Of a stretch of 30,192 nt of DNA, positions 14,571 through 30,192 are shown piece by piece; within the stretch, counting starts at the first letter, position 1; every line of letters begins with the position of its first letter. This stretch comes from a virus. Under the pieces are notes generated by a model that was not told the origin of the DNA, ran no database searches, and saw only the letters and a program-made list of their open reading frames with translations. The stretch covers positions 1 to 30,192 of IMG/VR virus record IMGVR_UViG_3300028608_000057. One strand, 5' to 3'. The translations under genes were made by a program, and so were the position numbers.

Positions 14571-15622
14571 CACGTCACCGCCAGTGTGTCGCCCGTTGCG
14601 GTCACCTGCAACGTGATCTGTTCCTGCCCGGGGGTGGCGTCACTGCCGCCGCTCTCGGTCACCTGCAACCCGGTGATCTTCAACCGCTGTGAGACATCCC
14701 GGCACGTCGCCGTCGTGGTGATGTCAACACACCAGCCGGGGACCAGGCTGGCCGCATCGATCGCTGCGTCCGGCGACAGGGTGAGACTCTGCGTGTCAAT
14801 GTGGACCGGCACGATCGCCGAGGATGCCAGCTTGGCAACGGCCGCTTCCTGGGCGGCCGCCGTGGTCGTAATGCTGGTCTGCTCTGAGTAGAGTTCCAGC
14901 AGCCCGTAGTAGTCGTTCGTGCCGCCAGCCTCGCCGACCACGCCCGACTCATCGGACCCGGCGACGATCTGCCGGGTCACCAGGTTCGAGCCGTCCTCTG
15001 TCACTGAGAGGCCGTCCGGCAGGTCGGTGTCCGTCAGGCGCCCGACCACTTCGCAGAAGTCATCGGGCATGATCACGATCGTGTTCCCTACGGCGGTGAA
15101 GTCGATCCCGGTGTCCGCCAGGTCCCGCAGGTGGTCTGCCGTCTGGCCGATGTTCTGCGGGTAGGCCCGGCCGCCGGTGACGCCGCTGGGACCGATCACC
15201 ACGATCTCGTGTCCCGGGTCGTCCGGGAAGAACGCATCCTCGATGAGCAGCTGCGCGATGGCCGTCAAGTCGGTGCCGGTGAAGTTGAAGTCCTGATGGG
15301 GGACCCGCCGGTCGAGCAGGCCGACCAGGTCGACGGCCTGTACGGTCATCGACTCGACGTCCCACCTGGGGTTCAGGACGAACCCCGACCACATCAGCGA
15401 GACGCCACGGTAGATGTTCAGCCGGTGCCGCCACGACCGGACGCCGCCCAGCTGGTTGCAGCACTCGGCGTCCGACACGCCGATGGTCACCGAGGCCGAT
15501 GAGGAATCGTTCAGCACCCGGTTGTACTCGACCTCGGTCAAGAGGCCGCCGGAACTGATCACCCGCCCCTCGCGGTCCGTAATGGTGTAGCTGTGGCTCT
15601 TGCACCCGAGAGGGATTGTCAT
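14570..15622 (-). CDS. Minor tail protein, Gp37-like hub, 350 aa
   Basis: The N-terminal part (SYTITDREGRVISSGGLLTEVEYNRVLND, then RHRLNIYRGVSLMWSGFVLNPRW) and the middle (VDLVGLLDRRVPHQDFNFTGTDL, AQLLIEDAF) match the pattern of siphoviral Gp37-like tail proteins, which belong to the tail hub and resemble the gp27/Tal ring. The C-terminal region has LVPGWCVDITTTATCRDVSQRLKITGLQV, typical of that family's last domain. Expected at the tail end, attached to the Dit-like protein encoded just upstream. ATG 15622 overlaps the upstream TGA; GTG 15625 is an alternative. Confidence 0.8.
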   Translation of the reverse strand: MTIPLGCKSHSYTITDREGRVISSGGLLTEVEYNRVLNDSSSASVTIGVSDAECCNQLGGVRSWRHRLNIYRGVSLMWSGFVLNPRWDVESMTVQAVDLVGLLDRRVPHQDFNFTGTDLTAIAQLLIEDAFFPDDPGHEIVVIGPSGVTGGRAYPQNIGQTADHLRDLADTGIDFTAVGNTIVIMPDDFCEVVGRLTDTDLPDGLSVTEDGSNLVTRQIVAGSDESGVVGEAGGTNDYYGLLELYSEQTSITTTAAAQEAAVAKLASSAIVPVHIDTQSLTLSPDAAIDAASLVPGWCVDITTTATCRDVSQRLKITGLQVTESGGSDATPGQEQITLQVTATGDTLAVT

Positions 15623-16947
15623 CACAGCCCCTTTCCGGTGATCTCAATCGAGACGGTCGCGTCCTCGGCAGGCGGGAAGTTCGAGTCCGTTTCGATGCAG
15701 ACGCAGTACGAGGCGCAGGTGAGCGCGTTCACGGTGAGCGGCGCGCCGTCCGAACTGCCGTAGACCGTCGTGGCGGGAACGCACCTGCCGACGCAGGTAA
15801 GCGTGGCCTGACCGGTCCGGCCGTCAACGATGACTTGCGAGTTGGGCGGGATGTACGTGATGTAGATGTCGGTGGTGGGGTTGCACAGCATGCTGTCCGC
15901 CGTCGAGTCGCAGGGCAGCGCCGGGTTGGGGTTCTCGTAGAACGTGACCCGGACGTTGCGAAGCGGCGCGCCGCCCGAGTCCACCGTGACGATGGGCAGG
16001 TCTTCCGACCACCGGGGCCGGTCGGTCAAGTCGATGCTGTAGCAGGCACGTTCGGGCACGAGCGGCGTGCAGAACACCGTCTCGGGTGCGGACGGCTGCG
16101 GCGGAACGACCTGGGGGTGCAGCGGGTCCTGGCACTGCTCGGGGTCGGTGCAGTCCCGGAAGAGGCAGGGCTCGCCTTCACACACCCCGTCCGACGCGTC
16201 AAGGCACCACTCGACGCAGTCGCCCTGTCCGGACATGGGCACGGTGACGTCCAGCACCGGCGCCGGATCGGTCCACGCCCAGGGAATCCCGGCGACGAGC
16301 ACGAACTCGACTTGAAGGATGTCCGCGCCCGAGCAGCCGCCGGTCGAGCAGCTTCCGCCGCCGGTCGCGTTCCTGGCTACCACGGTGGGTCCCGAGACCA
16401 GCGCGGTCCGGACGAAGTTCCGCCGGTGCTTGGCGTTGAACTGCTCGGGGGTCAGGCCGGGCTCGGGGCAGCAGGCGTACATCGACAGGCAGGTCCCGCC
16501 GCAGCCGTCACCGGCGCAGCTGTTCAGCACCTCGGTGAGGTAGTGCATGCCGTAGTCCACGCCGCAGCAGGACGTCCCGAGCAGCAGGCCGGTGACCGTG
16601 ATGGTGCGCGGCAGGTCCCTCGCCGGGCCGAACACGCCGCCGCCGCCGACCACGTTGGTCACGTTGCGGGCGCGCGGGTTGTCGTCGAGCCCTTCGATCG
16701 AGAGCGGCAGGAACCCCAGGAACTTGGCCGACTGGTCTACGTCCACGTCGTACCAGGGCGCCGGATCTGCTGTCGGGGTGTCGTACGGCTCGTCCCCGAG
16801 GACGGCCGCCGTCAGCGTCTCGCAGTTGCAGATGTTCGGGCCGGTGTCGAAGGGGGACCCGACGTTGGTCAGGTAGGCCTGCAACCGGGCGGTGTTCCAC
16901 AGTTCCCCGGTGCCGCTCTCGGCGTAGTCAGTCAGCATGGGCCACAC
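15622..16947 (-). CDS. Cys-rich Dit-like minor tail protein, 441 aa
   Basis: The region around 80-140 (AKFLGFLPLSIEGLDDN, RTITVTGLLLGTSCCGVDYGMHYLTEVL) resembles the N-terminal ring domain of Dit-like distal tail proteins. What is striking is the cysteine content: 26 Cys in 441 residues, many in pairs or clusters (NSCAGDGCGGTCLSMYACCP, DCVEWCLDASDGVCEGEPC). These probably form disulphides or bind metal in the mature virion. The C-terminal third has beta-sandwich-like segments (NVRVTFYENPNP, TDIYITYIPPNS). The GTG at 16947 has a weak GCGAG ribosome site; ATG at 16938 is an alternative. It overlaps the end of the 67-aa gene. Confidence 0.75.
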   Translation of the reverse strand: MWPMLTDYAESGTGELWNTARLQAYLTNVGSPFDTGPNICNCETLTAAVLGDEPYDTPTADPAPWYDVDVDQSAKFLGFLPLSIEGLDDNPRARNVTNVVGGGGVFGPARDLPRTITVTGLLLGTSCCGVDYGMHYLTEVLNSCAGDGCGGTCLSMYACCPEPGLTPEQFNAKHRRNFVRTALVSGPTVVARNATGGGSCSTGGCSGADILQVEFVLVAGIPWAWTDPAPVLDVTVPMSGQGDCVEWCLDASDGVCEGEPCLFRDCTDPEQCQDPLHPQVVPPQPSAPETVFCTPLVPERACYSIDLTDRPRWSEDLPIVTVDSGGAPLRNVRVTFYENPNPALPCDSTADSMLCNPTTDIYITYIPPNSQVIVDGRTGQATLTCVGRCVPATTVYGSSDGAPLTVNALTCASYCVCIETDSNFPPAEDATVSIEITGKGL

Positions 16948-17131
16948 AGCCGTTCTCGCAGGCGTTCACGGTCTTCTCGGCCCTCGGGGGCCACGGGCCC
17001 GCCACGACGTCTGAGAGGGGCGTACAGGGCCGCGCACGGGTGCGCCCTGGCGGCGGGTACGCGCCGGACGGGCTGACGATCCCCAGCACCTGGTACAGCC
17101 GGTGCTTGATCAGGCGCAGCAGCTTGCGCAT
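16928..17131 (-). CDS. Small basic protein, 67 aa
   Basis: MRKLLRLIKHRLYQVLGIVS is an amphipathic, basic helix; then a Pro/Arg-rich segment (AYPPPGRTRARP) and a short end with two Cys (NACENGCVAHAD). GAGGAAGGG stands 7 nt before the ATG, the strongest ribosome site nearby. No family recognised. It is the first gene after the non-coding island and its hairpin, and overlaps the Dit-like gene by 20 nt. Confidence 0.65.
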   Translation of the reverse strand: MRKLLRLIKHRLYQVLGIVSPSGAYPPPGRTRARPCTPLSDVVAGPWPPRAEKTVNACENGCVAHAD

Positions 17132-17167
17132 TCGGGTCCCTTCCTCGGTGGTAGGTCCAGCTTACCG

Positions 17168-17206
17168 GGGCGTCGCCCAGGCCTTCGGCAGGCCTGGGCG
17201 ACGCCC
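17168..17206 (-). terminator. Strong hairpin inside the late operon
   Basis: Perfect 16-bp GC-rich stem (17168-17183 with 17191-17206) with a 7-nt loop. It lies between the inverted-repeat element and the 67-aa gene. Being symmetric it could act on either strand; on the - strand it would limit read-through from the head genes into the tail tip genes. Confidence 0.65.
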
Positions 17207-17207
17207 T

Positions 17208-17461
17208 CGGCAGAAGTGCGGCAGAAACGAATGGGACATCGTTGCAGGTCAGGCCGTTACGGCAGAAACTTCCAGAAACTATGAGGGTCCCTATGTATGT
17301 GCACCACGGGGTACACCCCTACCTCACGCGCGGGCACGCGCGTATGTGTAACTGCCACACCCTGTGTGTTCACCCATAAGGGCCCTCATAGTTTTCCCGT
17401 GAAAGTGCCGCAGCCGCCTGACCTGCATGTTTGTCCGGCTCGTTTCTGCCCACTTCTGCCG
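17208..17461. repeat. Non-coding island with two ~95-bp imperfect inverted repeats and iterons
   Basis: Arm B (17208-17301, + strand) and arm A (17461-17371, - strand) are copies of one sequence facing inward around a 69-bp spacer. Shared blocks: CGGCAGAAGTG(C)GGCAGAAACG, then TGCAGGTCAGGC, then AAACTATGAGGG(T/C)CCC. GGCAGAA-type motifs are repeated: 17209, 17219, 17261, a variant at 17271 in arm B, and two in arm A. The 17132-17478 gap has no credible gene. Possible roles: a replication origin or a protein-binding regulatory site, or the remnant of an inserted element with terminal inverted repeats. Confidence 0.75.
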
Positions 17462-17478
17462 CAGGTCAGTCGCGCGCC

Positions 17479-17856
17479 CTACAGTGCGTCCCGCAGCGCC
17501 CTCGTCAGGAACGGATCGCCCCTATATCCCGGGTGGTTCACCTCGCGGGCAAAGACGACTCGGCCCCCGACTTCGAACCGAAGCCAGCCACCCGCCCGGC
17601 GCGGCCGGATCGGGTGGCGGCGCGATCCGTTGTGAACCAGGATTGAGTGGACGTTCGTGCTGATGACCTTGATCGACTTGTCCCGGTACGGCCCGACGAT
17701 GATCCCTTCCGGGATGCTGCCGTGACCGGCTGCGTACTGGCGGGCCAGGTCGGCCACCTGTTCCGCCTTGCGGGTCAGCAGCCGCTCACCCGCCCCGCCA
17801 GGGCGCGTCAGGATCCGCTGGAACGCCGTCAGGTCCAGCTGGACGGTTGCGGGCAT
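17479..17856 (-). CDS. HK97 gp10-like head-tail/tail completion protein, 125 aa
   Basis: The region SIKVISTNVHSILVHNGSRRHPIRPRRAGGWLRF, then VVFAREVNHPGYRGDPFLTRALRDAL, follows the pattern of HK97 gp10-type neck proteins: a beta-rich core with G-S-R-x-H-x-I and a final N/HPG...PFL..AL. It completes the connection of head and tail. ATG at 17856 overlaps the upstream TGA (TGATG); the longer frame is discarded. It is the last gene before the non-coding island. Confidence 0.75.
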   Translation of the reverse strand: MPATVQLDLTAFQRILTRPGGAGERLLTRKAEQVADLARQYAAGHGSIPEGIIVGPYRDKSIKVISTNVHSILVHNGSRRHPIRPRRAGGWLRFEVGGRVVFAREVNHPGYRGDPFLTRALRDAL

Positions 17857-18506
17857 CACGGGCCCACAGGCGGCGGCTCGGGCGGGCAGGGCAAGCATCC
17901 GTCGATAGCGACCGTGACCTCAGTCCTGAAGCCGATGCAGCCGCCCGACGGGCCGATCATGTTCGTGTCGCCCATGGCGTACCGGCGGCCGCTACGACGG
18001 ACCTCGGTGTCAGTCGCCGGGTAGCAGCAGGCCACCGCCCGCTGCACCGCCAGCATGTCGGCACTCAGCTGCATCGACACCGCGCTGAGCGCCTCGCCGG
18101 ACGGCGGGCATCCCTCGGCCGTCGGCCCCGGGATACAGCGGAACACCGTCACGTACAGGTCGAGCGCGTTGATCTGCGGCAGCGCGCAGCCCTTCAGGTC
18201 CCGGACGGCGGCCGCGCCGCCGATCGCGTTCGAGAACCGACGGGGGAAGGTCTGGTAGTCGGTCGCGAACATCCTGTTGATGTGGACCGTCAGCTGCCCG
18301 GGGTAGTCGCCGGGCTGCATCTCACACCCGCCGTCGCACGCGTCGGCAGCGGGCTGGCCCGGTGAGACGAACTTCCGGCAGGGACAGCCCAGGAAGCCGG
18401 GCAGTTCGACCGGGATCAGGTCCATCGACTCACAGACGCAGTCCAGCAGCGCCTGCTGGTGTTCGTGCAGGGCCAGCAGGCTCAGCGGCGTGTTCAGGTT
18501 CGGCAT
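17856..18506 (-). CDS. Cys-rich head-tail connector/tail terminator-like protein, 216 aa
   Basis: The position between a gp6-like connector and a gp10-like gene and the length suggest a connector or tail terminator; the sequence itself is not diagnostic. It has 14 Cys (6.5 percent), several in pairs (LDCVCES, GCPCRKF, DACDGGCEM, VACCYP, GCLPCPP), a content very unlike typical actinophage proteins. ATG overlaps the upstream TGA (TGATG), and its own TGA overlaps the next gene in the same manner. Confidence 0.65.
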   Translation of the reverse strand: MPNLNTPLSLLALHEHQQALLDCVCESMDLIPVELPGFLGCPCRKFVSPGQPAADACDGGCEMQPGDYPGQLTVHINRMFATDYQTFPRRFSNAIGGAAAVRDLKGCALPQINALDLYVTVFRCIPGPTAEGCPPSGEALSAVSMQLSADMLAVQRAVACCYPATDTEVRRSGRRYAMGDTNMIGPSGGCIGFRTEVTVAIDGCLPCPPEPPPVGP

Positions 18507-21146: not shown

Positions 21147-21830
21147 CTAGCCGTACATCAGGGTGGCGGTGACGGTCCCGCCACCGGCCACGTTCTCGGT
21201 GACGACACCTCGGTACCAGCGGAACGCGCCGCCGGTCAGTGAGATGTACTGGTTGACCCCGGTGGCGAGCATGGCGCTCGACGCAATCCGGGTCCAGTTC
21301 GTCCCGTCCTGGCTGCCCTGAAGGGCGACGACACCGTTGGTCACCGTGCCGTTCGGTTGGACGAACAGGGTGACGTTCGAGCGGGCCGCCGTGAAGTCGA
21401 CCGTGGTTCCGTCGCCGGTGGTGACGGCGGTCAGCGTCGCTGCGGCGACGGTGGATCCGCCGATCCCCACCGGTACAGTGCTGATGACGTTCACGTCGAA
21501 CGGCTCGGCCAGCTGGTTCGTGACCAGCACGTTGACCGGGTCCGGGCTGATCAGGTTGACGTCGAACGGCTCGGCCAGCTGGTTGGTGACGAGGACGTTG
21601 ACGGGGTCGGGACTGATCAGGTTGACGTCGAAGGGCTCGACCAGCTGGTTGGTCACCAGCACGTTCAGCGGGTCGGGACTGATGACGTTCACGTCGAACG
21701 GCTCGGCCAGCTGGTTCGTGACGTTCACGTTCAGCGGGTCCGGGCTGACGATGTTAACGTCCTGGATCTCGCCAGGTCCGTCCGGTTCGCACGGCTGCGG
21801 GTCGAAACCGCCGACCGGCTGCTCACTCAT
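21147..21830 (-). CDS. Repeat-containing head fibre-like protein, 227 aa
   Basis: The middle has four tandem 22-residue repeats plus a partial fifth, of the form DVN(V/L)ISPDP(L/V)NVLVTNQL, then AEPF. The alternating hydrophobic pattern suggests stacked beta-turns, as in fibrous beta-spiral shafts, with a C-terminal beta-sandwich head (VTLFVQPNGTVTNGVVALQG, WTRIASSAMLATGVNQYISL). It may be a trimeric fibre or spike on the capsid, because it lies close to the capsid genes. The first 18 residues hold a single Cys. ATG 21830 overlaps the end of the previous gene by 8 nt; the upstream part of the open frame is shadow. Confidence 0.75.
   Translation of the reverse strand: MSEQPVGGFDPQPCEPDGPGEIQDVNIVSPDPLNVNVTNQLAEPFDVNVISPDPLNVLVTNQLVEPFDVNLISPDPVNVLVTNQLAEPFDVNLISPDPVNVLVTNQLAEPFDVNVISTVPVGIGGSTVAAATLTAVTTGDGTTVDFTAARSNVTLFVQPNGTVTNGVVALQGSQDGTNWTRIASSAMLATGVNQYISLTGGAFRWYRGVVTENVAGGGTVTATLMYG
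21493..21756 (-). repeat. Four tandem 66-bp repeats within the fibre-like gene
   Basis: Units start at 21493, 21559, 21625 and 21691 with exact 66-bp spacing and high identity (core ACGTCGAACGGCTCGGCCAG). They encode the 22-residue protein repeats, so number changes would keep the frame. Confidence 0.9.
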
Positions 21831-25515: not shown

Positions 25516-28500
25516 TCAGTCCCCTTCGGTTCCGGTGCTGTCGACGTCCAGCTTATCCGCCAGGGCGAGCAGCTCGGCCAGCTCGGCGTCCTCGGCAGCC
25601 TTGCGCTGCTCGGCGCGCCCCATGGACGCAACCAGCGCGTCGGCCAGCCGGTCGTAGTCGATCTCGGGCGCCACCACTGCCACCGTGGCGGAAGCTGTCT
25701 GCTCGGCCGCCTGACGCACTTCCTCGGCGGTCACGACCTCGTCGATCTCGGCCAGCGTGGCCGCCGCCGTGAGGGCCATCTGGGACCGCTCGATCACCGC
25801 GCTGGCGAGCAGCGGGGACGAGTGCCCCGGCACCGGCACGCCGAGGACGGCGCGCAGCTGCCAGTTCCCGGACGGGCCCTTCTTCATGTGGTAGCTGGGC
25901 TGTGTCCCCTTGAAGACGACCCGGTCCCATTCGGACAGCCACGGCGCGGCCGCCCCCGAGAACCACATGCCGCGCTCGTTCATGCCGACGGTGACGATGC
26001 CAGCCACGGTGCGGGTGTCGTCGAACTGGCACGCCGACGTCTCACACTCGGCGCTGTCCCTGTGGTGGCCGACGTTCATGGTGTAAGCACCGGCCTTGAC
26101 AGTGCTGCCGTCGTCGAGCGAGAAGCGCTGACGCAGGAAGTGGCTGGTGTCGATCCGGCCGAGGCTGTCGATCGTGATCTTCTTCGCGTACCCGGCGTGC
26201 GGTTCGCCAGCCTGGGCGACCCACCCGAAGATCCGGCCGTTGGCGTAGTTCACGCCCGGCCCACCAGGCGGCAGCTCTTCCAGCGTCGGCTCACGGAACC
26301 ACGCGGCAGGCATGGGCGGGATGTCCGCCATCGCCTTCCACGCGCTTGCCTGCATGTCGTCCATGTCGTCCTCACCCGTCTCTTCGGCCACGTGCGCGGC
26401 GACCGCTTCCAGCTTGGCCGACACCGCGTCCCTCTCGTCCTCGGGGATGTTCACCCCGCCGCGCGCGCCGTGCAGCGCGCCGAGCGCGGCCGCCACCCCG
26501 GCCGGGATGATGACCAGCTGACCGTCGTCGATGTCGGCGTACCCCAGCTTGTAGGCGGCCTTCGTCGCGGGGTCCGCCGAGTCGTCCCGGTAGGCGAACG
26601 CCCTGCCGATCTTGTCCGTGTCGCCGTCGGCCCACTCGAAAACCCGCGTGGCTGCGGCATCGCCGTCCCACGTCTCGTCCCGGTCGGCCACCGGCAGGTC
26701 CACGGCGCCGGTGGCCGACGCAACGAGCGTCTCGGCTTCGATGTCCACCTGCTCGACAGACGCAACGACCGTCGCAGCCGTCTTTGACGGTCCTGTGTAC
26801 TGACCACGTGTCAGCCTCACCAGATCACCCTTCCTTGCAGCACGTGCCAGATGCCGCCGGACGGCGACGATCGGAACTTTCAGCAGCTTCGCCAGCCGCG
26901 CCGCCGACATGGGGTTGACGGACTTGCGGACCTGGCGTACAACCCGATCGTAGTCGGACGCTGCCGCACCGGCAGTCAGCCGTTCCCCGGCCGAGGCGAA
27001 GAAGGACGGGTCGTCGAGCACGATCCGCGCGTTCGCGTAGGCCGGGATCGTGACCAGCGTGGCGCCCCGGATCCGGCCCCGCGTGATGCGGACCAGGTAG
27101 TCGCCGGACCTCTGCGACTCGACCACCACACCGTCCGCCAGGTCCGGGTCACCGGCGGCCGCTTCCAGCTCGAACAGAGTGCCCGGCACGGTGCCGTCCG
27201 GTCCGGCGGTGAAGGTGACCTTGCGGGACTCGGACATGAAGCCGGTGGCCCCGGCGGCGAGCTCGGACTCGGTCTCGCCCGTGAGGCTGAAGCCGCCGTC
27301 CGGGTGCATGAACAGTGACGCGGTGAGCAGCCGCGTGCGGTACGTCTCGGACGCGCCGGGGGTGGCGTCGACCATCTCAAGGTCCACGTCGTCCAGGTCC
27401 ACCGAGACGCCCAGCGGGGCCTTCTGCGCGAGCAGCATGGCCGCCTCAGCGCCAGCCTGCTGGGACACGTACAGCTTGCCGTGGCCGGGGATCCTGTCCC
27501 CGTCCCGGCCGATGCCGTCGATGCACCCGGCCAGCTGCGCGCCTTCGTGGCCGCCCATCATCTCGTCGGCGTACTGAAGCGGCCACGGGCCGGGGCCGTC
27601 CCAGTACAGCGCGCCGGGGGCAAACACCCTGCCGTCGCCGGTCTGCTGGTTCTCGAAGGCGAGCGCCGTCTCGTCCGGCGTGGACCAGGTGACCACCGGG
27701 TGCGGGTCGTACTCGGCCTTCTCGACAGCCATGTCGTCCGGGTAGATCGTCTCGTCCAGCGCGACGACCTGACCCTGGTCCGGGTCGGGCAGTAGTGGGT
27801 AGTCGGTGTACTCACCGGCGAACGCGACCCGCAACCGGTCGAAGGTGACGGGCCCGACCCGGTCGGTCATGGACTGCACGTCCGCCTCGCCGTACGCCCC
27901 GCAGACGTGCGGCGACCAGGGGGTGTACTGCGGCGGCATGCGGTCTACGTGGTCCTGATCTTCGAGCTGCCACGTCACCTCATGGTGGGCCCCGGCCAGG
28001 TCCGGGCCGTCCGTCTCACGGTCGTCCCCGATGTTCCAGACCCACGCGGGACTGTCGCCCTGAGGATTCCACTGGGCGACACCGAACGCACGGGCGCTGA
28101 CCGGGGCCAGCCACCCGGCAGCGCGCTGCATGGCGTACCGGACCGAGTCGCGGGACTCTTCCGGCCAGTCGGCAGCGTCGCCCAGGTAGTACAGCGTCAT
28201 GTGCAGCTGGTCCGCCACCTCACCGCCGATCAGGGCGAGACGCTCGGCGTCCGCCTTGCTCGGCATCAGGGCGATCATGGCGCCGGTGTGCACATCAGCG
28301 GCGGCTGACAGGTCGTCCTCGTCCACGTCGGTCCTCTCACTGGCGACGGCCGTCCGCATGATGCACCGGCAGTTAATCGTCAGGTCGGCCGGGGCCGTCG
28401 GGTCCCCGGGGTACTGCATGGGCGTGCCGCCCACGTCGAACGGATCATCGATCAGCTGAAGCTGGGCGTTCGCGTCTCTGTGTGCGATCCTGACGCGCTC

Positions 28501-29082
28501 GTCGTTGCGGGTGACCCACTGCTTCACCAGCGGCCGGTCCGGGCCCGTGAGCGCCTGCGCGGCGGCCAGCGTGCCCGCGTTGAACGCCCGGGTCGCCTCG
28601 GTCGCGGCGATGCGCTGCGCCCGGGTCGGCCCAAGCTGCGTGCCGTCATCGTCGAACAGGGTGGTCATCCGCCGCTTCAGCTGCGCCGTGGTCTCACCGG
28701 CGGCCACGCCCTCGGCCAGGGACTGCACAGCGGCTGCGGACAGCCGGTCCCCGACCTGGTCCAGCAGGCCGCGCGTCGCTTCCAGGTACGGGGTCAGGAC
28801 GTCATCCTGCTGCGTGAGCGGCGGCACCGGCTCGTCGAGATCCTCGGCCGTGACCCGGGCGCCCCGGGCGGCGATCGCCCGCAGGCGGGTCATGATCGAG
28901 CCGACCCGGCGACGCCACATGGCACCGATCCGGCTGACGCTGAACGTCGCGGCCGTCAGCTCGGTCGACCGGTCCACGGCAAAGGCGAAGTCCTGCGCGG
29001 TCAGCGTGAGCGCCGCCTGCACGTCCTCGCGCAGGTCTGCTTCCAGTTGGTCGAGCAGCGCTTCCAGCTCGTCGTCGGTCAT
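25516..29082 (-). CDS. MuF-like / 2H phosphoesterase / prohead protease fusion, 1188 aa
   Basis: Domains in order: MuF-like head morphogenesis (about 110-246), with TEATRAFNAGTL, RNDERVRIAHRDANAQ and the closing LTINCRC; a 2H phosphoesterase-like domain (about 266-400), with LHMTLYYLGD (His294-X-Thr296) and a second site SPHVCGAY (His392-X-Cys394) in which Thr/Ser is replaced by Cys; a prohead protease-like domain (about 465-690), with GHEGA, KAPLGVSVDLDDVDLE and RIRGATLVTIPAYANARI; a small winged-helix-like part (725-765); a YKLGYADIDDGQLVIIP domain (about 800-900); and a second protease-like region (about 935-1095, MNVGHHRDSAE, GMNERGMWFSG), then a coiled C-terminus. It should ride in the prohead and process the capsid protein. 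The ATG overlaps the portal stop. Confidence 0.85.
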   Translation of the reverse strand: MTDDELEALLDQLEADLREDVQAALTLTAQDFAFAVDRSTELTAATFSVSRIGAMWRRRVGSIMTRLRAIAARGARVTAEDLDEPVPPLTQQDDVLTPYLEATRGLLDQVGDRLSAAAVQSLAEGVAAGETTAQLKRRMTTLFDDDGTQLGPTRAQRIAATEATRAFNAGTLAAAQALTGPDRPLVKQWVTRNDERVRIAHRDANAQLQLIDDPFDVGGTPMQYPGDPTAPADLTINCRCIMRTAVASERTDVDEDDLSAAADVHTGAMIALMPSKADAERLALIGGEVADQLHMTLYYLGDAADWPEESRDSVRYAMQRAAGWLAPVSARAFGVAQWNPQGDSPAWVWNIGDDRETDGPDLAGAHHEVTWQLEDQDHVDRMPPQYTPWSPHVCGAYGEADVQSMTDRVGPVTFDRLRVAFAGEYTDYPLLPDPDQGQVVALDETIYPDDMAVEKAEYDPHPVVTWSTPDETALAFENQQTGDGRVFAPGALYWDGPGPWPLQYADEMMGGHEGAQLAGCIDGIGRDGDRIPGHGKLYVSQQAGAEAAMLLAQKAPLGVSVDLDDVDLEMVDATPGASETYRTRLLTASLFMHPDGGFSLTGETESELAAGATGFMSESRKVTFTAGPDGTVPGTLFELEAAAGDPDLADGVVVESQRSGDYLVRITRGRIRGATLVTIPAYANARIVLDDPSFFASAGERLTAGAAASDYDRVVRQVRKSVNPMSAARLAKLLKVPIVAVRRHLARAARKGDLVRLTRGQYTGPSKTAATVVASVEQVDIEAETLVASATGAVDLPVADRDETWDGDAAATRVFEWADGDTDKIGRAFAYRDDSADPATKAAYKLGYADIDDGQLVIIPAGVAAALGALHGARGGVNIPEDERDAVSAKLEAVAAHVAEETGEDDMDDMQASAWKAMADIPPMPAAWFREPTLEELPPGGPGVNYANGRIFGWVAQAGEPHAGYAKKITIDSLGRIDTSHFLRQRFSLDDGSTVKAGAYTMNVGHHRDSAECETSACQFDDTRTVAGIVTVGMNERGMWFSGAAAPWLSEWDRVVFKGTQPSYHMKKGPSGNWQLRAVLGVPVPGHSSPLLASAVIERSQMALTAAATLAEIDEVVTAEEVRQAAEQTASATVAVVAPEIDYDRLADALVASMGRAEQRKAAEDAELAELLALADKLDVDSTGTEGD

Positions 29083-30192
29083 GCCGCCGCCACCTTGATC
29101 TGAGCCAGCATCCTGGGGACGTTGTCGAAGGCGTGAGTCTGCCCGCTGATGAGCAGCGCGGTGACGTACTCGTTCAGGGCGCCAGCCAGCGCCAGCGGGT
29201 CCAGCCCGTAGCGCTGCGCCACGTCCGGCACCCGGACCCACGCATCGTCGAGCAGCTTGTACGCAGCGACGTTCTCGCGCATGACCGGGTGCCGGAAGTG
29301 GACCATGCCGGTGGCAACCAGTTCCCGCGAGGATCCCCGGTTGGCGCGGGGAACCAGCGGTGTGTTCATCATCTTCCGGGACGCCCCGAGCAGCGCGCCC
29401 CAGACGAGGCCGTCGACAGCCTCGGCCAGCGCGGCGGACGTATCGGCAGTGAAGCTGTCCAGGACCGCAGAGGAAGCGGCCACGGTCATCGGCGGGAAGG
29501 CAGGCGGCGCTTCGGTCTCGCTCACAGGCAGGTCGTCCTCTGTGGTCGTCGGGGTCTCGTCCTCATCAGGCATCGTATCGGCCGAGCTCGGCGCGTCCTT
29601 CTCGGTGAAGCCGAGCTCGCGGCGTGCGGCGGACCCGCTGATGAGCCCTTCCTTGTACGCTTCCAGCGCGCTGGCGCTCTTGTTGCTGGACGAACGCAGA
29701 CCGGCCGTGTCGTACCAGACCATCCACTCACCGGCGTCCGGCTCACCCTCGGCTTCGAGCAGCGGCTGAAGCCACTCGTCGGTGAGCGCCTGACAGATGA
29801 GCGCGAGGCGCGGCTCGGCGCCCATCCGCAGCGCCTCGGCGGTCAGCGCCCAGGCACCCCAGTGGTTGCTGTCCCCGAGGCCGAGCAGCACCTCGGCCGG
29901 AACGTCGGCACCGATCGCGAACCGGCGGATCGCCTCGTCGCGCAGCTGAAGGGCCATCGCGTCGAACTCGGACGTGAACTGAAGCCACTTGACCCCAGAG
30001 ATCAGGTCACCGGGGACTTCCAGAACGATCGGCACCGTGGCGGCCGCCGACTCGGGCTCACGGATTGCCGTGCTGGCGACTTCGATGAACGTGTCAAGCA
30101 GCGAGTCCTCAGCGCCGTCCTGGCCGGGCTGCGTGGGGAAGCGCGCGCCGGACGGGATGAGCAGGATGCCGCGCCCCGTAATGCGGGACCGG
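29079..30192 (-). CDS. Portal protein, C-terminal part, 5' end outside window
   Basis: The frame is open to the right window edge (370 residues visible). RSRITGRGILLIPSG and the core DEAIRRFAIGADVPAEVLLGLGDSNHWGAWALTAEALRMG, then ALTDEWLQPLLEAEG, are typical of siphoviral portal proteins (the P-A-E-V-L-L-G and N-H-W-x-A-W pattern). SGSAARRELGFTEKDAPSS is the usual wing-to-crown end, followed by an acidic Thr/Pro linker and a C-terminal extension (residues after about 225) with DSFTADTSAALAEAVDGLVWGALLGASRKM. The portal forms the ring through which DNA is packed. Its TGA overlaps the fusion gene's ATG. Confidence 0.9.
   Translation of the reverse strand, partial: RSRITGRGILLIPSGARFPTQPGQDGAEDSLLDTFIEVASTAIREPESAAATVPIVLEVPGDLISGVKWLQFTSEFDAMALQLRDEAIRRFAIGADVPAEVLLGLGDSNHWGAWALTAEALRMGAEPRLALICQALTDEWLQPLLEAEGEPDAGEWMVWYDTAGLRSSSNKSASALEAYKEGLISGSAARRELGFTEKDAPSSADTMPDEDETPTTTEDDLPVSETEAPPAFPPMTVAASSAVLDSFTADTSAALAEAVDGLVWGALLGASRKMMNTPLVPRANRGSSRELVATGMVHFRHPVMRENVAAYKLLDDAWVRVPDVAQRYGLDPLALAGALNEYVTALLISGQTHAFDNVPRMLAQIKVAAA

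Follow-up and report, generated by a model that had tools for sequence, protein, structure and literature searches.

Three dyad-symmetric intergenic elements as candidate replication origins in Woodruffvirus-like Streptomyces phages

Introduction

To our knowledge, in most phages whose replication has been mapped, it begins at a single origin or at a few dissimilar ones. In the satellite phage P4, a single fusion protein combines primase and helicase, and each genome has more than one cis site (ori plus crr). The stoperators of cluster A and R4-like actinophages, for their part, consist of a genome-specific short box that is repeated in intergenic DNA. SaPI and PICI origins are composed of two iteron sets that flank a central stretch, with iterons that differ between lineages, and these elements encode a primase-helicase of the D5/P4 type (PMC6092414, which also mentions the P4 alpha protein and its ori site). 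For the archaeon Sulfolobus, two reports describe three origins per chromosome, with repeated protein-binding boxes flanking a central region (PMC3091651, PMC4010727).

Here, we analyse an intergenic element in a DNA fragment of 30,192 bases (the window), which, based on matches of the flanking genes, derives from a Woodruffvirus-like Streptomyces phage of actinophage cluster BG. The matching phages of this cluster and its kin are Xkcd426, Geonosis, Abt2graduatex2, YDN12, TP1604, phiSAJS1 and Mischief19. Prolate siphovirus particles and circularly permuted genomes are reported for cluster BG phages (PMC5511901, PMC5773734), and Geonosis has been described as virulent (PMC11536984). No integrase, as would be expected alongside an attP site, is named in the annotations of the relatives examined. 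The two cluster BG announcements leave the element unmentioned, the word 'repeat' is not found in the Geonosis paper, and the open-access literature searched, which leaves out most subscription journals, contains no description of it.

Results

Architecture of the element in the window

The first-pass annotation of the window had described a large inverted repeat with boxes kept in both arms. Gapped self-complement alignment confirmed this structure in its original place, with arms at 17198-17312 and 17359-17473 that are separated by a spacer of 46 nt. Its dyad alignment score is 79, whereas 5,000 Markov-resampled segments averaged 16.9 and reached 32 at most, and it is the sole structure of its kind in the window, with the runner-up scoring 35. 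A repeat search resolved the inverted pairs 17220-17264/17406-17450, 17276-17304/17366-17394 and 17208-17218/17451-17461. Both arms keep the iterons CGGCAGAAGTG and CGGCAGAAAC, the box TGCAGGTCAGGC and the box AAACTATGAGGG(T/C)CC, whereas the stretches between them differ. The features of the element and its neighbourhood are as follows:

15622..16947, minus strand: 441-aa minor tail protein (phrog_838, E 5e-105)
16928..17131, minus strand: small hypothetical protein, downstream gene
17198..17312, plus strand: left arm of the dyad element (gapped self-complement alignment)
17208..17229, plus strand: two tandem outer iterons, CGGCAGAAGTG CGGCAGAAACG, mirrored in the right arm, their words confined to the element
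17243..17254, plus strand: left universal box TGCAGGTCAGGC, with the core CAGGTCAG (paired in 44/44 elements)
17260..17269, plus strand: third iteron of the left arm, CGGCAGAAAC (direct repeat)
17276..17291, plus strand: left inner box AAACTATGAGGGTCCC (inverted repeat; same box in copy 1 of the window phage on contig L144)
17326..17342, no strand: GC-rich core ACGCGCGGGCACGCGCG at the dyad centre (GC averaged over 44 elements)
17359..17473, minus strand: right arm of the dyad element (gapped alignment and inverted repeat pairs)
17380..17394, minus strand: right inner box GGGCCCTCATAGTTT (inverted repeat)
17416..17427, minus strand: right universal box GCCTGACCTGCA (inverted repeat; pairing in 44/44 elements)
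17441..17461, minus strand: two outer iterons, CGTTTCTGCC CACTTCTGCCG (inverted repeat)
17479..17898, minus strand: HK97 gp10-like tail completion/Neck1 protein, upstream gene (phrog_5, E 9.7e-6)

The orientation of the late-operon setting proposed earlier has to be corrected: the operon lies on the minus strand, such that the gp10-like gene is upstream of the element, which is followed downstream by the small gene and the minor tail gene (17131-15622). Relatives annotate the counterpart of the gp10-like gene as a tail assembly chaperone or connector, and the minor tail protein matches its relatives at 56-58%. Two further repeats were noted in the window. A perfect 17-bp stem with a 5-nt loop (GGGCGTCGCCCAGGCCT; 17168-17206) lies directly next to the left arm, within the leader of the following gene, and, lacking a T-run, is not a classical terminator. 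Further along the late region, positions 21480-21761 comprise 4.3 copies of a 66-bp tandem repeat, corresponding to 22 codons per unit.

The element itself is intergenic. Its six reading frames are broken by stops or contain only short, overlapping chance frames, and annotated relatives have a gap at the corresponding sites, except in YDN12, in which copy 1 (see below) is annotated as overlapping a small hypothetical ORF, so that its description as a non-coding island is upheld. Within the window, all three occurrences of GGCAGAAAC and both occurrences of GCAGAAGTG fall within the element. By contrast, seven of the 12 window matches of the short motif GGCAGAA lie outside of it and are scattered, which limits specificity to the longer iteron words. 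Thus, the iterons noted in the first-pass annotation do recur in both arms, but GGCAGAA itself is not specific to them.

Three copies at conserved positions in each genome

The multiplicity of the element was first seen in a box search of complete relatives, which returned three clusters per genome. A scan for dyad symmetry that was blind to the boxes detected exactly three elements in each of seven complete genomes, with scores of 61-197 and all other structures at 39 or below (for three of the seven, the scan covered the first 50 kb only). Overall, three dyad elements, always intergenic, were present in 9/9 complete or near-complete relatives checked, comprising seven database phages and two IMG/VR contigs (the near-complete genomes G002 and G003), and many more elements were found in IMG/VR relatives. 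The finding survived the comparison with relatives that had initially been suggested as a check on it.

Copy 1 is located in the gap before gp10-portal. Copy 2, which corresponds to the window element, separates the gp10-like/chaperone gene from the minor tail genes, and copy 3, in each genome seen, is flanked by the primase-helicase gene on one side and a divergent gene on the other. The distances between copies amount to 21-41% of the circular map. For the window phage, copy 1 was predicted from its relatives to lie just past the right end of the window. The IMG/VR contig L144, which overlaps window positions 28125-30192 at 99.6% identity, carries this predicted copy, with boxes of the window type.

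No convincing element was detected in distant relatives matching in the minor tail gene, which reach about 50% identity at best, or in some short contigs of closer relatives, and no relatives of the primase were found in the bacterial genome collection. The IMG/VR sequence G008 contains matches to CAGGTCAG but no dyad in the stretches examined. This sequence, which is related to the group in the minor tail gene, comprises 75,402 bases with a 23-bp tRNA-like direct repeat at both ends (L128, L129) and is apparently a tRNA-integrated prophage.

An inverted repeat that occupies a non-coding gap and occurs several times per genome could also represent a mobile, MITE-like insertion with terminal inverted repeats, and the ends of an inserted element were among the roles initially considered. 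However, the elements reside in the same gene gaps in relatives whose primases are 64-83% identical, their sequence varying while their position is kept, and the complete genomes scanned contain no further copy. Copies at non-homologous sites with target duplications, reflecting the variable sites of a transposon or MITE, were not seen either, making this the least probable of the readings considered here. The properties of a protelomerase telomere site, which would require a linear genome with fixed hairpin ends, do not fit, because the genomes are reported to be circularly permuted (PMC5511901, PMC5773734) and contain three sites each.

A fixed plan with variable iterons

A typical arm consists, from the outside to the centre, of at least two iterons, the CAGGTCAG box, usually another iteron and the inner box. 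Allowing for at most one mismatch, all 44 elements measured contain the CAGGTCAG box as a pair, with its two members facing inward in 37, outward in 6 and in tandem in 1 of them. The iterons, on the other hand, fall into at least four unrelated kinds across phages: GGCAGAA in the window phage, Xkcd426 and cluster BG, TTCCCGCG in phiSAJS1 and many IMG/VR relatives, GCATGCTCAGTGAA in Mischief19, and a further one in L076. The iterons turn over while the plan stays, in agreement with the original proposal that several boxes are conserved, as opposed to a single recent duplication. Iteron words occur almost exclusively in the elements, including 17/17 occurrences of TCCCGCGAA in phiSAJS1, and are not dispersed genome-wide like the boxes of operators or stoperators. 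In the elements examined, they are mirrored, such that two iteron sets flank a central region, as in origins of the PICI/SaPI type. The AT-rich central melting region of such origins, however, is not observed. Averaged over the 44 elements, the GC content reaches 86% at the centre, drops to 46-49% at 40-50 nt and to 46-54% over 40-60 nt on either side and is about 66% outside, so that AT-richer DNA is found only 40-60 nt off centre. The GC core is absent from some class B and D elements.

Within an arm, the iterons are direct repeats or palindromes, a layout as would be expected for DNA-binding proteins. This arrangement also bears on the idea of an RNA-level device, in which a long transcript hairpin would attenuate or process the late mRNA. 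The predicted fold is indeed very stable (z = -12.7), as for any inverted repeat. Yet arm mismatches on the sense strand comprise 148 G.U and 139 A.C pairs (p = 0.64), indicating that RNA pairing is not what is kept; moreover, copy 3 lies between divergent genes, and no Rfam family was matched at gathering score. A function of the element at the RNA level thus appears highly improbable.

Concerted evolution, exchange and rearrangement

Between phages, the outer iterons are replaced wholesale, while within one genome, all copies and both arms change together. The nearest match is another element of the same genome, rather than the same site elsewhere, for 24 of 32 elements, and the remaining ones come from closely related phages. 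Copies 1 and 3 of Abt2graduatex2 are identical at 292/292 positions in opposite orientation, and flipped matches also connect copies 1 and 2 of Xkcd426 (263/276) and copies 1 and 3 of Mischief19 (316/334). The frequency of flipped matches within genomes indicates that copies exchange sequence and are retained in either orientation. Homogenised and often inverted paralogues, in turn, suggest that the element is functional in both orientations, as a bidirectional origin may be.

The left half of the phiSAJS1 genome is rearranged, yet its elements continue to be found ahead of the gp10-portal block and the minor tail block. Compared with Xkcd426, the blocks tape measure-gp9 and major tail-chaperone are swapped, with two of the four breakpoints located at copies 1 and 2. 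This swap could have arisen from a single recombination event between copies 1 and 2 and subsequent reinsertion.

These breakpoints, together with the roughly even spacing of the copies, their occurrence in either orientation and their frequent intragenomic exchange, are also consistent with a structural or segregation node, at which a phage DNA-organising complex would anchor or pair the genome for segregation, recombination or packaging. One protein that might contribute to such a complex is the membrane-like gp76, which is conserved in every complete relative tested and combines hydrophobic N-terminal segments with a conserved C-terminal BldC/excisionase-like HTH (in Xkcd426, it is encoded at L018:10730-11740; the phiSAJS1 record splits it into two frames). 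However, gp76 is a candidate with no direct link to the boxes, the recombination may merely result from the presence of repeated DNA, and the gene for an FtsK-like protein, an obvious partner, is largely missing from phiSAJS1. We therefore consider a node of this kind improbable. The loss of the FtsK-like gene, which is present in other members and reduced to a C-terminal remnant in phiSAJS1 (L021/L022), also led us to reject the idea of KOPS- or clt-like sites used by an FtsK-like translocase, since phiSAJS1 keeps the elements.

Candidate initiator and reader proteins

The primase-helicase encoded next to copy 3 matches D5_N and DUF5906 as well as chain 7ola, a solved DNA primase that we take to be the SaPI5 primase-helicase. 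Its gene is adjacent to copy 3 in each genome seen but not to copies 1 and 2. The protein is a candidate for the cognate initiator. Its C-terminal HTH-like segment hardly varies across the iteron classes, suggesting that its possible target is the universal CAGGTCAG box and not the variable iterons, which should be read by another protein. An AlphaFold model of this segment in gp53 of Xkcd426 displays the order of helices and strands of a winged helix, albeit at low confidence (pLDDT 59.5) and too weakly for a fold search.

No iteron reader was identified among the candidates gp54 and gp43. The N-domain of gp54, whose gene lies beside copy 3, does not track the iteron class, as Xkcd426 (GGCAGAA) resembles L035 (TTCCCGCG) in this region; its AlphaFold model, which is of moderate confidence, shows a domain composed of a beta-sheet and a helix and has no match in the PDB. 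The core gene with the sharpest identity drop between iteron classes is gp43 (25-45% outside cluster BG). Judging from its sequence, however, its product looks like a PD-(D/E)XK nuclease and not like an iteron binder; in Xkcd426 (L017:38359-39282), this core hypothetical protein has a D-x-D...V-D-Y-K pattern. In Mischief19, copy 2 is adjoined by an oppositely oriented XRE-type HTH gene, gp28 (L019:29517-29981). A Mischief19-type iteron lies directly upstream of this gene, which is possibly autoregulated or encodes a local iteron reader.

Discussion

Our results characterise the element as a cis-acting, dyad-symmetric candidate protein-binding site that occurs three times per genome, in similar copies at intervals of roughly one third of the genome. 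Its mirrored iteron array, the small number of sites, their indifference to orientation and the location beside a primase-helicase gene most closely resemble an iteron origin. At a probability of about one in two, we favour the reading that each copy is a bidirectional iteron-type origin worked by the P4/SaPI-type primase-helicase of the phage. We infer all of the binding and replication steps involved: a phage protein would read the genome-specific iterons on both arms, and the universal CAGGTCAG boxes would be recognised by a conserved factor, possibly the winged-helix-like domain at the C-terminus of the primase-helicase; two helicase hexamers would then be placed in mirror image, the AT-richer shoulders beside the GC core would melt, and forks would depart both ways.

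Several observations speak against this proposal. The exact centre of the element has a GC content of 86% and thus lacks an AT-rich unwinding region, two of the copies sit in late operons, and the candidates examined did not yield an iteron reader. In addition, GC skew, which had been suggested as a means of locating the replication start, does not serve as evidence for three origins: coarse 3-kb values were suggestive, but a percentile test was unsupportive, with no consistent switch at the three sites (mean percentiles of 0.16-0.85 by flank and site, and 0.27-0.59 for copy 1) and with copy 3 coinciding with a gene-strand switch.

The strongest rival is a bidirectional operator-promoter, with one phage regulator acting at three symmetric regions to drive or repress outward transcription. 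Indeed, every copy heads a transcription unit, namely gp10-portal for copy 1, the minor tail genes for copy 2 and the divergent primase and helicase operons for copy 3. Moreover, reverse genes, where present, begin at the element, as seen for Xkcd gp9 and for gp28 of Mischief19, the HTH protein with an iteron upstream. On the other hand, a scan of positions 16900-17700, whose models cover not all promoter types, returned no sigma-70-like site, and the arms are much longer than a usual operator, with iteron words that, unlike scattered operators, occur almost nowhere else. Importantly, copies beside early (copy 3) and late (copy 1) genes can be 100% identical, so that a role at the DNA level fits better than timed promoters. 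Among the roles proposed in the first-pass annotation, an origin is preferred and an operator, while possible, appears unlikely.

Carrying the origin reading further, three equivalent dyads might divide a virulent phage genome of ~60 kb and fire together, maybe anchored to the membrane by the HTH membrane protein. The iterons and their reader would turn over fast, the CAGGTCAG box and the mirror plan would stay fixed, and flipped ectopic exchange would keep the copies in step. We regard this larger scheme as tentative and would lean against it as a whole. If true, three equivalent, co-evolving mirror sites in each member of a phage group would constitute a compact model for multi-origin firing and for the replacement of an origin code, comprising iteron and reader, without loss of function, and they could provide Streptomyces genetics with a phage-driven replicon. 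Even if the element proves to have a regulatory or structural role, a cis element that is present in triplicate, evolves in concert and is common to a whole phage group appears undescribed in the literature searched.

The element differs in instructive ways from the systems it resembles. It has flanking iteron sets, a D5/P4-type primase-helicase and lineage-variable iterons in common with SaPI/PICI origins, but forms a mirror dyad of about 250-360 bp with an extra universal box and a GC-rich centre, and it occurs in three copies per genome rather than once next to rep. Similar to P4, a fused primase-helicase is combined with more than one cis site per genome, whereas here there are three equivalent copies in a phage of 56-68 kb. 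Repeated boxes around a centre and three sites per circular map are also described for Sulfolobus, although the initiator family is unrelated and the centre is AT-rich there and GC-rich here. With stoperators, the element shares the use of a genome-specific short intergenic box, but its boxes are found almost exclusively in three large dyads and not dispersed as single sites, and Geonosis is described as virulent (PMC11536984). The iteron-origin type as such is thus known, while its triplication, mirror plan and concerted turnover are unusual.
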